A stretch of 64,000 bases of DNA from Nibricoccus aquaticus (GTDB lineage Bacteria; Verrucomicrobiota; Verrucomicrobiia; Opitutales; Opitutaceae). The notes below the pieces were generated by a model that was not told the origin of the DNA, did not search any database, and was given only the letters and a program-made list of their open reading frames with translations. The stretch covers positions 2,869,501-2,933,500 of the forward strand of contig NZ_CP023344.1 in the NCBI RefSeq assembly GCF_002310495.1, written 5' to 3'. Shown here one piece after another: positions 39,106-55,558 of the stretch; the first letter of the stretch is position 1, and every line of letters begins with the position of its first letter. The translations under genes and the position numbers were made by a program.

Positions 39106-49881
<10,776 letters not shown>

Positions 49882-50260: not shown

Positions 50261-52906
50261 TTAAGGAGTGGTGGCTTGGGCGCGGAGGAACTGGCGGGGG
50301 GACGTCGTCACGGGCTGGGCGCAGCGGTAGGTGACGGTTTCGGCGAGGCCGTCGGGGTCTAGGATGGCGGGGCCTTGTTGTATGACGTCGGATGTGGCGC
50401 TGCTCCAGGTGGAGAGCGTGGTCGAGGTTTGCGCGATGACGGCGAGGCCGGTGGGGCCGAGGGCGCGGCGGAAGGTGAGGGTGAGGTAGGACTGGCCGGT
50501 GGCGGTGTCGGTCCAGCGGCCGGTGGTCCAGGCGGTGGAGGGCTGGTCGGGACGGGTGGCGAGGGCGTATTCGAGATTATTGGACAGGCCGTCGCGGTCG
50601 GGGTCGGCTTCGGGGCCGGTGATCGTGGGGTCGCTGGTGGAGGACGGGAAGTAGGTGGCGATCCAGCTGGAGAAGGCCGGGGTGGCGGGAGTGACGACGA
50701 GTTCGACGGTGCCGAGGAGGGCGTAGCCGCTGGCGGTGTTTTGGGCACGGACGGCGAGTTCGAGTTTGCCGATGCCGTCGGCGGTGAGGTCGGCGAGGGT
50801 GGCGGTTTGCGTAGTGTTGCCGACGGCGTCGAGGGTGGTGGTGGCGGAGCCGACGGTGAAGGTGCCCACGCGGCTGACGGCGTCGCCGGGGTCGGTGCGC
50901 GAGGCGTAGAGGACGAGGGTGTAGCGGCGGTCGGCGCGGAGGCCGGTGAATTCGAGGCGGCCGGTGGCGGCGGCTTGCGTGTAGAAATAATCGCGGCTGG
51001 CGGTGTCGGGGTAGAGCGGGCTGCCGGTGAGGCCGGAGGAGGCGACGGCATTGAAGGCGGAGCTGACGCGGATGCGGATGCCGGTGCTCGCGCCGGTGGA
51101 GTCGATGGCGTTGGCGACCTCGGTGTTGGCGGCGATGGCGGTGAGGTTGTTCCAGTTGCCGGTGGTCGTGGTCGAGGGATCGCCGAGGTCGAGGCGTATC
51201 CGGGCGGTACCGACGGGGCTGACGATGACGGTGAGGTCGTCGCTCGCGGCGAGGGCGCTGTCGCCGGCGGTGAGGCGGAGGACGTAGGTGCCGGGGGCGC
51301 TGAAGGAGGCGGTGGTCGAGAGGGAGAGTTCGTTGGCGAAGGTGACGGTGCCGGGGCCGCTGACGACGCTCCAGAGCGTGGTGAGTGTGGAGGCGGCGGG
51401 AAGGCCGTCGTCGTAGGCGGAGCCGGTGAGCGAGAGGGTGGCGGGCAAGGTGAGCGAGGTGTCGGCGCCGGCGTTGACGACGGGTGGGAGATTGGGGGAT
51501 GCGCCGGTGTAGGTGACGAGCAGGGTGGTCGTGGCGATGTTTCCTGCGGCGTCGCGGGCGGTGAGGGTGAGCTGGTTGGCGCCGTTCATGAGGGCGAGGG
51601 CGGGCGTGGTCCAGGAGGTGGTGCCGGTGGTGGTGCCGGTGAGGCTGGTGCGGTCGCTGGACCAGGTGACGCTGGTGACGGCGGTGTTGTCGGAGGCGGT
51701 ACCGGTGAGGGTGAGCGGTTGGGTGGCGGTTGAGTAGGTTGAAGAGGTTGTCGGTGTGGAGAGGGCGAGAGACGGGGCGGTGGTGTCGCCGGTGGGAGCG
51801 GTGTGGCTGATGACGAGGGTGTCGCTGAAGGTGGTGACGCCGCCGTTGAGCGAGGAGAAGCTGGTGCCCGTGGCCTGGATACGGAAGGTGTTGGAACCGT
51901 TGCGGAGAGGGAGGGCGGACGCGGACCAATCTGTTGTGCCGGTGACGGTGCCGGGGGTGGCGGAGCTGCCGGTGCCGCTGCCGAGATCGGTGCGGACCCA
52001 GGTGAGCGCGGTGGGAGCGGCGGTGGCGCTGGCCCAGCCGGAGAGGGAGGCGGTGGCACCGTGCTGGGCGGTGGCGATGCGGAGGGCGGGGTTGAGCGCG
52101 GGGGTGGTGCCGCGGCGTTGGGACATGACCCAGGGGACGAGGTGGGGATTTTTATAGGCTTCGGTCCAGGAGGCGTGTGCGCCGGTGGCGTAGCGGGAAT
52201 AGATGGGGTCGCCGCCATTGTTGCGGACGGCGTTGACGGCGTCGTCGGAGCCGGAGACGCCAACGGTGGGGTCGTTGGCGGAGTGGAAGACCCAGAGCGG
52301 GACGTGTTTGAAGGCGGCGTAGTTGCCGCCGCCCCAGCCGCAGATGGGGACGCCTGCGGCGAAGCGGGTGGGGTTTTGCGCGAGTTGATCCCAAGTGCCG
52401 GCGCCGCCCATGGAGATGCCGGTGACGTAGATGCGGTCGGGGTCGATGGAGAATTCGGCGATGAGGCCGTCGATGATCGCGCGGAGGTGGGTGCGGCGGA
52501 CGGCTTCGCTCCAGTCGCCGGTGCTCTGCGGGGCGATCATGAAGCAGGGATACGCGGTCTCGTAGGTAGTGTCGGAGGAGCCGGCGGGGCCTTGGACGAA
52601 GACGAGGGCGCCGTTGGCGTTGTTGTTGAGCTGGGAGGTGTTGTTGGTGCCGCGTTCGCCGGAGCCGTGGAGGAACATGACGAGCGGGTAGCGCGCGGCG
52701 GGGTTGTAATTGCGCGGCGTGAGAATGCGGTAGGGCGTGGAGCCGGAGGAGTCGGTGTAGGTGCGGGAGGCGAAGTCGGCGGCGGTGGCGGCGCGGGCGG
52801 TGGCGCAGGCGGCGAGGGCGAGGAATGCGCCCGCGAGGAAGCGGGTGAAGCGCGCGGCGCGGGTGGGGATCAAGCGGGCGAAGGTGGGGCGGGATGGGGG
52901 CCTCAT
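50261..52906 (-). CDS. Secreted alpha/beta-hydrolase (esterase-like) with Ig/PKD domains
   Basis: An 881-residue exported protein. After a signal peptide (LAGAFLALAACATARAATA) comes an esterase domain (about 45-275) of the feruloyl-esterase/PHB-depolymerase-like type. It has YPLVMFLHGSGERG (oxyanion region), nucleophile Ser in GISMGGAGT (about 170), Asp in SANDPTVG and His in ATGAHASW. Two Ig-like 'Big' domains, a PKD-like domain (NLPPVVNAGADTSLTLP) and a C-terminal beta domain with a DPDRDGLSNNLEYALA calcium-like motif follow. The latter resembles the C-terminus of the giant protease upstream. It could de-esterify plant polysaccharides, which suits the pectin genes here, but the substrate is not shown by the sequence. 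Confidence 0.8.
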   Translation of the reverse strand: MRPPSRPTFARLIPTRAARFTRFLAGAFLALAACATARAATAADFASRTYTDSSGSTPYRILTPRNYNPAARYPLVMFLHGSGERGTNNTSQLNNNANGALVFVQGPAGSSDTTYETAYPCFMIAPQSTGDWSEAVRRTHLRAIIDGLIAEFSIDPDRIYVTGISMGGAGTWDQLAQNPTRFAAGVPICGWGGGNYAAFKHVPLWVFHSANDPTVGVSGSDDAVNAVRNNGGDPIYSRYATGAHASWTEAYKNPHLVPWVMSQRRGTTPALNPALRIATAQHGATASLSGWASATAAPTALTWVRTDLGSGTGSSATPGTVTGTTDWSASALPLRNGSNTFRIQATGTSFSSLNGGVTTFSDTLVISHTAPTGDTTAPSLALSTPTTSSTYSTATQPLTLTGTASDNTAVTSVTWSSDRTSLTGTTTGTTSWTTPALALMNGANQLTLTARDAAGNIATTTLLVTYTGASPNLPPVVNAGADTSLTLPATLSLTGSAYDDGLPAASTLTTLWSVVSGPGTVTFANELSLSTTASFSAPGTYVLRLTAGDSALAASDDLTVIVSPVGTARIRLDLGDPSTTTTGNWNNLTAIAANTEVANAIDSTGASTGIRIRVSSAFNAVASSGLTGSPLYPDTASRDYFYTQAAATGRLEFTGLRADRRYTLVLYASRTDPGDAVSRVGTFTVGSATTTLDAVGNTTQTATLADLTADGIGKLELAVRAQNTASGYALLGTVELVVTPATPAFSSWIATYFPSSTSDPTITGPEADPDRDGLSNNLEYALATRPDQPSTAWTTGRWTDTATGQSYLTLTFRRALGPTGLAVIAQTSTTLSTWSSATSDVIQQGPAILDPDGLAETVTYRCAQPVTTSPRQFLRAQATTP

Positions 52907-53024: not shown

Positions 53025-53903
53025 CTATTCTGGAGCAGCGGATTCCGACTCGTTCATAGCGCGGGCGGCGTTGCCGGGGTTTTTGAGGTAGGGGCGGAGT
53101 TGGTCGAAGGTGGCGGCGTCCTGGCCGCCGTGGTCGCGGCGGAAGGCCATCGTGGCGGCAGTGAGATCGGTGAGGACTTCGGGTTTGATCGGGCGCTGGC
53201 GGAAGTTGGGCGAACTGACGGAGTGAGTGTACGCGAGGCTCTGTTCCATGAGCTGGTCGGAAGGACCGTCGGTGCTGGAGGGCTTTTCGAGGATCACGCG
53301 GTCGGTTTTGGGATCGAGGCCGGCGGTGGAGCCGGTGCGGGCCATTTCGTAGCGCGCGAGGATGGCAGCTTCGATGGGCGGGTCGAAATAGGGAAGCAGA
53401 GCGGAGGTGGTGGGTGGGAGAATGCCGGCGGAGGCGGCGAGGTATTTTTTCAGCGCGGGCTTGAGGTGTCGGGTCGCGAATTTGCGGCGGGCGGTGTTGC
53501 GGGTGTGGCTGAGGATGCGGGAGTATTCGTCAGGAGAAACGAGCGGGGTGTCGCGGTTGATGACGATGGAGAGCCACTCGTCGTCGGTGAGGAGGCGGAG
53601 CTCGGGGATTTGTTCTTCGGGGAGGAGGGCGAAGAGGCGTTGGAGATTGCGGGTTTGTTCGAGTTTGGCGCGGGCGGTTTGGGCGAGGGTGGAGAGGTCG
53701 TGCGCGGGCGCGGCGACGGGCTCGGTTGAGAGGCGGACTGTTTCGGAGAGTTGTTTTTTGAGGGCGGCGATCTGTGCCTGTGCGGCGGCCTGCTGTTCTT
53801 CGGCGCGGGCGAGGCGGGCGCTGGTTTTTCGGAGGAGCGTGCCTTCGTAGGTGACGAAGGTGAGCGCGAGGAGGAGCAGGATGACGAGCGATGGTTTATT
53901 CAT
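53025..53903 (-). CDS. Single-span membrane protein homologous to the sensor part of the adjacent sigma factor
   Basis: A 292-residue protein with one N-terminal membrane span (residues 5-24, LVILLLLALTFVTYEG), a coiled coil (about 28-60) and a periplasmic domain. The domain matches the C-terminal domain of the sigma factor encoded just upstream. Shared blocks are LPEExIPELRLLTDxxWL, RNxARxxF, PYFDxPI and ILARYEMAxTG in the same order and spacing. Its ATG overlaps the sigma factor stop by the ATGA at 53900-53903, so the two are coupled. It contains no known catalytic motif. By analogy with sigma/anti-sigma pairs it might control the sigma factor, perhaps by dimerising with its paralogous domain, but this is inference. 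Confidence 0.75.
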   Translation of the reverse strand: MNKPSLVILLLLALTFVTYEGTLLRKTSARLARAEEQQAAAQAQIAALKKQLSETVRLSTEPVAAPAHDLSTLAQTARAKLEQTRNLQRLFALLPEEQIPELRLLTDDEWLSIVINRDTPLVSPDEYSRILSHTRNTARRKFATRHLKPALKKYLAASAGILPPTTSALLPYFDPPIEAAILARYEMARTGSTAGLDPKTDRVILEKPSSTDGPSDQLMEQSLAYTHSVSSPNFRQRPIKPEVLTDLTAATMAFRRDHGGQDAATFDQLRPYLKNPGNAARAMNESESAAPE

Positions 53904-55375
53904 CGCGCGGGCGTTTTGGCGGGGCGGAGCGACTCGAGGAGTTCGGGCGTGAGGCGAGTTGAGCGCCAGCGATCCGTTGTGGCGTAGTGAGTGCCCATCA
54001 TCGCGGTCTCGGAGAGTGTATCGAGGCTGTTGTCGGTGGCTGAGCTTTTCTCGCGGATGACGGTCTTTCGCGGACCGGCGTCGGTGGCAGTGCCGGTGAA
54101 CGCCATTTCATAACGAGCGAGTATGGTGTCGTCGATGGGCGCGTCGAAATAGGGACGAAGTGCGAGCGGCGTTTCTGGAAGGACGTCGCCGGAGGCCTGG
54201 ATGAATTTTTGCAGAGCGCTTCGGAGCAGCGGATCGAAGCGGTGGCGGGCTTTGTTGCGGATCTGGCTGAGGGCCCAGTCGGCGTCGGAGGGCGTTTTGA
54301 GCGACTGTTCGGCGGCGACGGCGAGCCAGTCGGTGTCGGTGAGGAGGCGGAGTTCGGGGATGCGCTCTTCCGGGAGGGAGTCGAGCAGGCGCTGGAGGAG
54401 TGCGGCGCGGTCGAGCAAGGCTTCGAGGCTGGTATCGAGGGAGTCGGTCGAGGCGGACGGGGCGTGGGGCGGCGCGACGGACGAGGCGGACGGTTGGGTG
54501 CGCGAGGCGAGTTGGTTTTGGAGGGCGGTGATTTCGTTTCGGAGATGGGAGGTGGAGAGTTCGCTGGCGGTGGTGCGTTGGTTGAGGTGCGCGAGGGCGG
54601 CGGCCTCGAAAACGGCGAGGGCTGCTGTGAGGACGAGTGCGGCGGCGAGGACCGATTTTTTTGAGACGGTCATGAGGAGCGTTTGAATGAAGGTGCTGCC
54701 GAGCGGGACGGCTGAACTGGCCGCGGCGAGGAAGGCGGGTGACGTGAGCGCGGCTGAAAGCGTGGCGGGGGCGGCGGTGGTGGCGTGCAGCGGGAGCTGG
54801 GCGGCGAGGAGCGCGGCGGTGGTGGTGAGACCGCGGCGGGCGAGATGGGCGCGGAGTTTTTCGAGGGAGCGGGTGAGGCGTTTTTGGGCGGTGTCGTCGG
54901 AGATGCCGAAGTGGGCGCCGATCTCGCGGAGGGATTTTTCCTCGAAGAAGCGCAGGAGGATGGCGCGGCGGTCGGGCTCGGGGAGCGAGGTGAGGGCGTC
55001 GTCGATTGCCGGAGAAATTTCGCGCGAGTGGGAGTCGGGCGATGACGATGAAGCGTCTGGAGTGTTCATCGCGGCGAGGGTGGTGGCGGTGTGTTCGCGC
55101 TGGCGGCGGCGGGCTTCGGTGCGGATGGCGTCGATGGCTTTGTGGCGCGTGATGACGCAGAGCCAGGATTTGAGGTGGGTGTCGGGGCGGAGGCGCGGCG
55201 CGTGTTGGGCGAGGTGGAGAAAGACGGACTGGGCGATGTCGTCGGCGAGTACGGGCGAGCGGGTCTGGCGGAGAGCGGAGGCGTAGACGAAATCGAGGTG
55301 ACGCGTGACGAGCTGCGCGAAGGCGGGGTGCGAGCCGGTGGCTGAGTAGTCGCGGAGTAGATCGGCGTCGGTCAT
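53900..55375 (-). CDS. ECF-type sigma factor fused to a membrane span and periplasmic sensor domain
   Basis: A 491-residue protein. Region 2 of an ECF sigma factor lies at about 15-95 (FAQLVTRHLDFVYASALRQTR, DDIAQSVFLHLAQHA, WLCVITRHKAIDAIR) and region 4 at about 125-185 (LTSLPEPDRRAILLRFFEEKSLREIGAHFGISDDTAQKRL). An Ala-rich hydrophobic stretch then leads to a membrane span (about 240-262, VLAAALVLTAALAVFEAAAL), a short coiled coil and a C-terminal domain (about 320-480) shared with the downstream gene. The sigma domain would therefore be held at the inner membrane with its sensor outside. I chose ATG 55375 (MTDADLLRDYS); the longer frame is implausible upstream. Promoters recognised by it are unknown. 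Confidence 0.85.
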   Translation of the reverse strand: MTDADLLRDYSATGSHPAFAQLVTRHLDFVYASALRQTRSPVLADDIAQSVFLHLAQHAPRLRPDTHLKSWLCVITRHKAIDAIRTEARRRQREHTATTLAAMNTPDASSSSPDSHSREISPAIDDALTSLPEPDRRAILLRFFEEKSLREIGAHFGISDDTAQKRLTRSLEKLRAHLARRGLTTTAALLAAQLPLHATTAAPATLSAALTSPAFLAAASSAVPLGSTFIQTLLMTVSKKSVLAAALVLTAALAVFEAAALAHLNQRTTASELSTSHLRNEITALQNQLASRTQPSASSVAPPHAPSASTDSLDTSLEALLDRAALLQRLLDSLPEERIPELRLLTDTDWLAVAAEQSLKTPSDADWALSQIRNKARHRFDPLLRSALQKFIQASGDVLPETPLALRPYFDAPIDDTILARYEMAFTGTATDAGPRKTVIREKSSATDNSLDTLSETAMMGTHYATTDRWRSTRLTPELLESLRPAKTPAR

Positions 55376-55558
55376 CGGGGCGTGGTGGCGTGGCGGGTTG
55401 TTGAGGAAGGATCGTTGCGAAGCGGGGGAATCCGACAGGAGTTTTTGGGGGACAGGATTTAGGGGATGAACAGAGTTGAATGAATCAGGATAGAGAAGAG
55501 TGGGTGAGGTGAGTGGCGGGAGATTGCGTTCGATGCGGGGGGGAGTTCCGTTTTCGGC

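Follow-up and report, generated by a model that had tools for sequence, protein, structure and literature searches.

A membrane-fused ECF sigma factor of Nibricoccus aquaticus and an overlapping gene for a copy of its membrane-anchored half

The window, a stretch of 64,000 nucleotides from the Nibricoccus aquaticus genome (a single 4.73-Mb contig), contains two overlapping genes on the minus strand, one for an ECF sigma factor fused to a membrane span and an outer domain, here called D1, and the other for a smaller membrane protein, here called the partner. The features of the locus are as follows.

55429..55437, minus strand: -35-like element TGTCGGATT of a putative self-regulated promoter
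55410..55414, minus strand: -10-like element CGATC (clade consensus CGATA), after a 14-nt spacer
53900..55375, minus strand: sigma gene, 491 aa, encoding ECF sigma, linker, membrane span, coiled coil and D1 outer domain
54830..55375, minus strand: Sigma-70 regions 2 and 4 (residues 1-182), from Pfam; AlphaFold pLDDT 93-98 over most of the part, except residues 91-120
54659..54829, minus strand: linker (residues 183-239), rich in Ala, nearly free of charges and containing the AP.GL motif of the clade; mostly of low confidence in the model
54584..54652, minus strand: membrane span of the sigma protein (about residues 242-264) with KK just before it, from hydropathy and charge bias
54500..54583, minus strand: coiled-coil-like helix of the sigma protein after the span (about residues 265-292)
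53903..54448, minus strand: D1 of the sigma protein (residues 310-491), an outer domain with a shortened C-terminus, from alignment and model
53900..53903, minus strand: ATGA overlap of stop and start codons (sigma stop 53900-53902, partner ATG 53901-53903)
53025..53903, minus strand: partner gene, 292 aa, encoding membrane anchor, coiled coil and complete D1
53838..53894, minus strand: the partner's membrane anchor (about residues 4-22), from sequence and model
53040..53696, minus strand: outer domain D1 in the partner (residues 70-288), its core mostly at pLDDT 88-98

The sigma protein matches the Pfam families Sigma70_r2 (E=7e-15) and r4_2 (E=9e-13) as well as TIGR02937 (E=1.8e-30), and contains regions 2 and 4 but neither region 1 nor region 3, the arrangement of an ECF sigma factor. 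Structure comparison showed that the fold of its sigma part resembles those of the ECF sigmas SigW, SigE, AlgU and SigH. The AlphaFold model is confident in the sigma and D1 parts and of low confidence in the linker. Hydropathy and charge bias place a span behind region 4, followed by a presumably extracytoplasmic part, and the order of regions 2 and 4, span and C-terminal domain given in a preliminary description of the locus is confirmed. The sequence and the model suggest a single-span protein with the sigma domains inside and the coiled coil and D1 outside. The D1 of the window sigma protein lacks the last ~50 residues that the partner and most relatives have. Pfam searches found no anti-sigma domain, either zinc-binding or FecR-like, in the window sigma protein, whether in its linker or its C-terminus, or in the other clade members scanned.

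The partner gene starts inside the sigma stop codon, as described earlier, and the ATGA overlap suggests translational coupling of the two genes. The partner had been described as a single-span protein repeating the sensor domain of the sigma protein, a claim that was to fall if the C-termini aligned no better than chance. Alignment of the C-termini showed 41% identity over 203 aa (E=1e-37), far above chance, which upholds the claim and excludes that outcome. The homology begins at the membrane span itself, indicating that the second gene duplicates all of the membrane-anchored half of the first. The AlphaFold model of the partner has a pLDDT of 86.8 and a pTM of 0.70. The partner protein has no Pfam match, NCBIfam and PADLOC returned nothing useful, a plasmid collection gave no match, and an initial genome-wide scan with the partner alone as query gave zero relatives. 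The charges flanking the spans of partners gave no clear orientation signal. Further downstream on the minus strand, 118 nt after the partner gene, lies a gene for an 881-aa protein with a putative esterase and PKD/Ig domains (window 50261-52906), which could be co-transcribed with the partner gene, and beyond it a gene for a secreted protein of 3591 aa that combines a subtilase domain and PQQ/BamB-like propellers with numerous cadherin-like and bacterial Ig domains (window 39106-49881).

D1 has no Pfam relative although it is predicted with high confidence; nothing in the PDB resembles its fold (best E 1.6), and the hits of a profile search against the PDB were coiled coils or otherwise at chance level. 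Across 84,980 species, a scan yielded 365 D1 relatives, the best 80 of which are from Verrucomicrobiota wherever the record names the phylum. An adjacent D1-only gene is present for 13 of the 58 complete D1 sigmas in named genomes, and 6 of 12 D1 sigmas in the Opitutaceae sample are paired with a D1 partner. In the D1 tree the partners are scattered and do not form one group, and the well-supported branches require at least seven changes between the fused and the stand-alone state. Several pairs are mutual closest relatives, and the two proteins of the window are sisters with a support of 99. Repeated local duplication is the best account of this tree, and gene conversion within pairs could contribute to the pattern. 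One genome contains arrays of five and two stand-alone D1 proteins (L039 and L040) without a sigma of this clade.

The surroundings of the window sigma were compared across its clade. A sigma profile search of 61 Opitutaceae genomes gave more than 100 strong matches (E<1e-56), every frame being longer than 380 aa, and 105 sigma factors of the clade were gathered with their neighbourhoods; a phylum-wide count, in which five candidates per genome were scored, was excluded from prevalence. Nearly all of the 105 are membrane-fused. The main membrane segment starts a median of 43 residues past region 4, its N-terminal flank is net positive in 95 of 107 proteins and net negative in none, and only 4 of 106 have a further membrane segment. 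The 45-residue linker has a median of one charged residue and usually the AP.GL motif. A codirectional gene lies directly downstream in 56 of the 105, and 46 of these genes encode an N-terminal span. In 21 of the 56 the downstream gene codes for a relative of the outer domain of its own sigma, whereas 20,000 permutations gave a mean of 3.65 and a maximum of 12; after removal of the D1 cluster the count is 14 of 47 against 3.5 expected. The partner frames in homologous pairs are intact, and a possible partner start codon is found within -15 to +35 nt in 26 of 27 pairs. Pairs of a sigma-fused and a stand-alone copy, for which the preliminary description had proposed to search, do recur, with D1 and at least five unrelated outer domains, but they are not obligatory, as the D1 counts above show.

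At least six mutually unrelated outer domains are found on sigmas of the clade. A possible linking of outer-domain clusters by coiled coils alone was examined by re-running the comparison at 80 or more aligned residues and by hhalign between families, in which the D1, D2, 'ATP' type, L164, L120 and L178 families are unrelated (at most 14% probability). The L111-type domain has only about 52 residues in common with D1, and Sel1 with TonB_C is another type. The outer domain changes 36 times on the sigma tree against a minimum of 11, and the outer domains as a whole appear to have been swapped among the clade sigmas, which is not claimed for D1 itself. The D1 sigmas fall into two separate clades of the tree, yet a single clade is not rejected (AU p=0.14), and D1 swapping between sigma clades is therefore not claimed. 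One clade sigma (L150:601-2637) is fused via its span to a complete serpin domain (Pfam E=2.6e-94). L133, L144 and L149 form one outer-domain cluster and their downstream genes also form one cluster; L144, the one scanned, has an NfeD-like C-terminal domain below the Pfam cut-off, and its downstream gene encodes a flotillin (Band_7), the usual partner of NfeD. On one contig (G022, C102; L117 and L118) about ten membrane-fused sigma genes are in tandem within 38 kb, many with a downstream partner.

The N. aquaticus genome has two further D1 sigmas, both without a partner, so that D1 domains do not always occur in such pairs, a point that the preliminary description had proposed to check. Three more sigmas of the same clade carry other outer domains. 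L077 has an unrelated outer domain, to which a membrane protein encoded 4 nt downstream is homologous (E=3e-6). The 733-aa L075 seems by inspection to contain two copies of the L077-type domain in one chain. The sigma of L076 (L076:4523-5854, C1:1394314) has a TonB_C outer domain (E=1e-18), and its overlapping gene encodes a different type of membrane protein, the same set being present in several relatives.

A conserved promoter-like element was found via k-mers upstream of the sigma genes. Most sigma genes of the clade are preceded by TGTCGGATT, a gap of 14 nt (in 44 of 53) and CGATA, with the -10-like CGATA about 15 nt before the start codon, and in other sigma clades TTCGGTTT replaces TGTCGGATT. 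The type of element tracks the sigma clade (8:0 vs 6:38, p=4e-6) and not the outer domain: L130, a sigma of the window's clade with another outer domain, has the window-type element, whereas the other type precedes D1 sigmas that belong to the second clade. Co-variation of this kind would be seen where a sigma recognises the promoter of its own gene, and self-regulated promoters with conserved -35 and -10 elements are common, though not universal, among ECF sigma factors. The position of the element before most sigma genes and its agreement with the sigma clade give the sigmas the look of active, self-regulated factors, and the conservation strongly supports the view that a sigma of this clade would transcribe the operon that encodes it from a putative TGTCGGATT/CGATA promoter. 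Of the 12 genomes searched, 9 contain the exact pair, in one or two copies each, and in most of these it lies just before the D1 sigma. With a 14-nt spacer, the highest-ranking site of the 4.73-Mb genome, with one mismatch, lies upstream of the window sigma; the exact pair, with T for G at one -35 position and 15-nt spacing, precedes another D1 sigma of this genome. A regulon search gave no site clearly above background apart from those of sigma genes.

ECF signalling is normally described as a sigma with a separate anti-sigma. Membrane-fused ECFs are already known (IutY; ECF48, 52 and 53), and the present clade is a variant of these. IutY of Pseudomonas putida (ECF243) likewise has a sigma domain, a span and a periplasmic part in one chain and is activated from outside, being released by Prc and RseP (PMC8999054). 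However, IutY has a fused anti-sigma part and a cell-surface receptor, whereas the clade has exchangeable outer domains, a second gene copying the outer domain and no recognised anti-sigma domain. The ECF48, ECF52 and ECF53 proteins of Actinobacteria, such as SCO4117, similarly have a C-terminal extension with one or two spans, and the carbohydrate-binding outer part of SCO4117 is comparable to the outer domain of the clade; they belong to another phylum and carry a zinc-finger anti-sigma-like domain not found here, and the literature searched reports no co-encoded copy of their outer domain. In ECF41 and ECF42 a regulatory domain is also fused behind region 4, but it is SnoaL-like or TPR and there is no membrane span. 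In the RpoE-RseA-RseB system the sigma is free and the anti-sigma separate, and RseB is not known to duplicate the outer domain of RseA. The system resembles the locus in that the sigma is held at the membrane and a second envelope protein modulates the response (PMC8103513). An exchangeable outer domain on one sigma clade together with a repeatedly evolved co-encoded copy was not found in the literature searched, outside which the main ECF classification lies; the clade may already carry an ECF group number in the 2021 classification.

The reading that we prefer, to which we give an even chance of being right as a whole, is a self-contained, self-regulated envelope-signalling operon in which a tethered sigma with a paired sensor is released on a signal. 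The sigma would be made as a single-span membrane protein with its sigma domains inside and the coiled coil and D1 sensor outside, and the partner gene, as a tandem duplicate of only the membrane-anchored half, would supply a second D1 subunit. Most likely the partner binds the chain with the sigma domains by way of the coiled coil and D1 that both possess, and in the resting state this pair would hold the sigma at the membrane. An envelope signal would alter the pair and allow the sigma to use RNA polymerase, most likely after site-2 protease cleavage in or near the span, as in IutY; Peptidase_M50 genes are present. The freed sigma would transcribe its own operon from TGTCGGATT/CGATA and probably a few weaker targets. 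Several findings speak against this reading: Pfam recognises no anti-sigma domain in the linker that would keep the sigma off, the -10-like element of the window sigma gene is CGATC instead of CGATA, the charges beside the partners' spans give no clear orientation, and 45 of 58 D1 sigmas lack a neighbouring D1 partner, so that the partner is not needed for the basic function.

The same sigma-only versions would be expected if a homodimer were the basic active form and the partner a decoy or brake, binding the signal or the outer domain of the sigma chain and blocking the active sigma homodimer. No proteolysis would then occur and the sigma would act in the membrane like ToxR or CadC. Its sigma domains could reach DNA by means of the linker, which is long and of low confidence in the model, and the coiled coil and domain are kept in both chains. 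However, in the literature searched no ECF sigma has been shown to act from the membrane, and ECF48, ECF52, ECF53 and IutY are released or thought to be, and we regard this alternative as unlikely, though worth serious consideration. It is decidedly improbable that the outer domain is no sensor and anchors the sigma to an envelope machine to which the partner belongs; some relatives do carry a TonB_C domain or an NfeD-like one, the latter beside a flotillin gene, but D1 has no such known context and its operon seems to hold only two genes. The tandem arrangement of many clade sigma genes and the unpaired D1 sigmas of the same genome would also fit a partner that is a neutral or decaying leftover of a tandem sigma-gene duplication, without a signalling role. 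However, the dN/dS of 0.21-0.37 in orthologous partners, similar to that of fused copies, indicates purifying selection, and the intact frames, the near-touching starts in 26 of 27 pairs and the same arrangement with six unrelated domains all count against a leftover, which we consider very improbable.

Beyond the operon, and as a tentative proposal that we rate somewhat short of even, the preferred reading could be extended to phylum-wide one-piece transmembrane sigma receptors, in which the sigma domain, the promoter and the outer sensor would make up one exchangeable cassette, and a sensor-only subunit would have evolved repeatedly to give a hetero-oligomeric receptor with an RNA polymerase subunit as one arm. 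In a phylum that is abundant in soil and water, receptor and sigma appear to be combined in one protein that takes plug-in outer domains, including D1, TonB_C, serpin, NfeD-like and several unnamed ones. The co-made second sensor copy appeared many times independently, a recurrence that suggests a type of paired receptor not yet described. These proteins open tests in which outer domains are swapped to reprogram the input, the short promoter of fixed spacing is used as a readout and sigma function is followed while the protein is anchored, and the clade provides a ready set of candidate membrane sensors.
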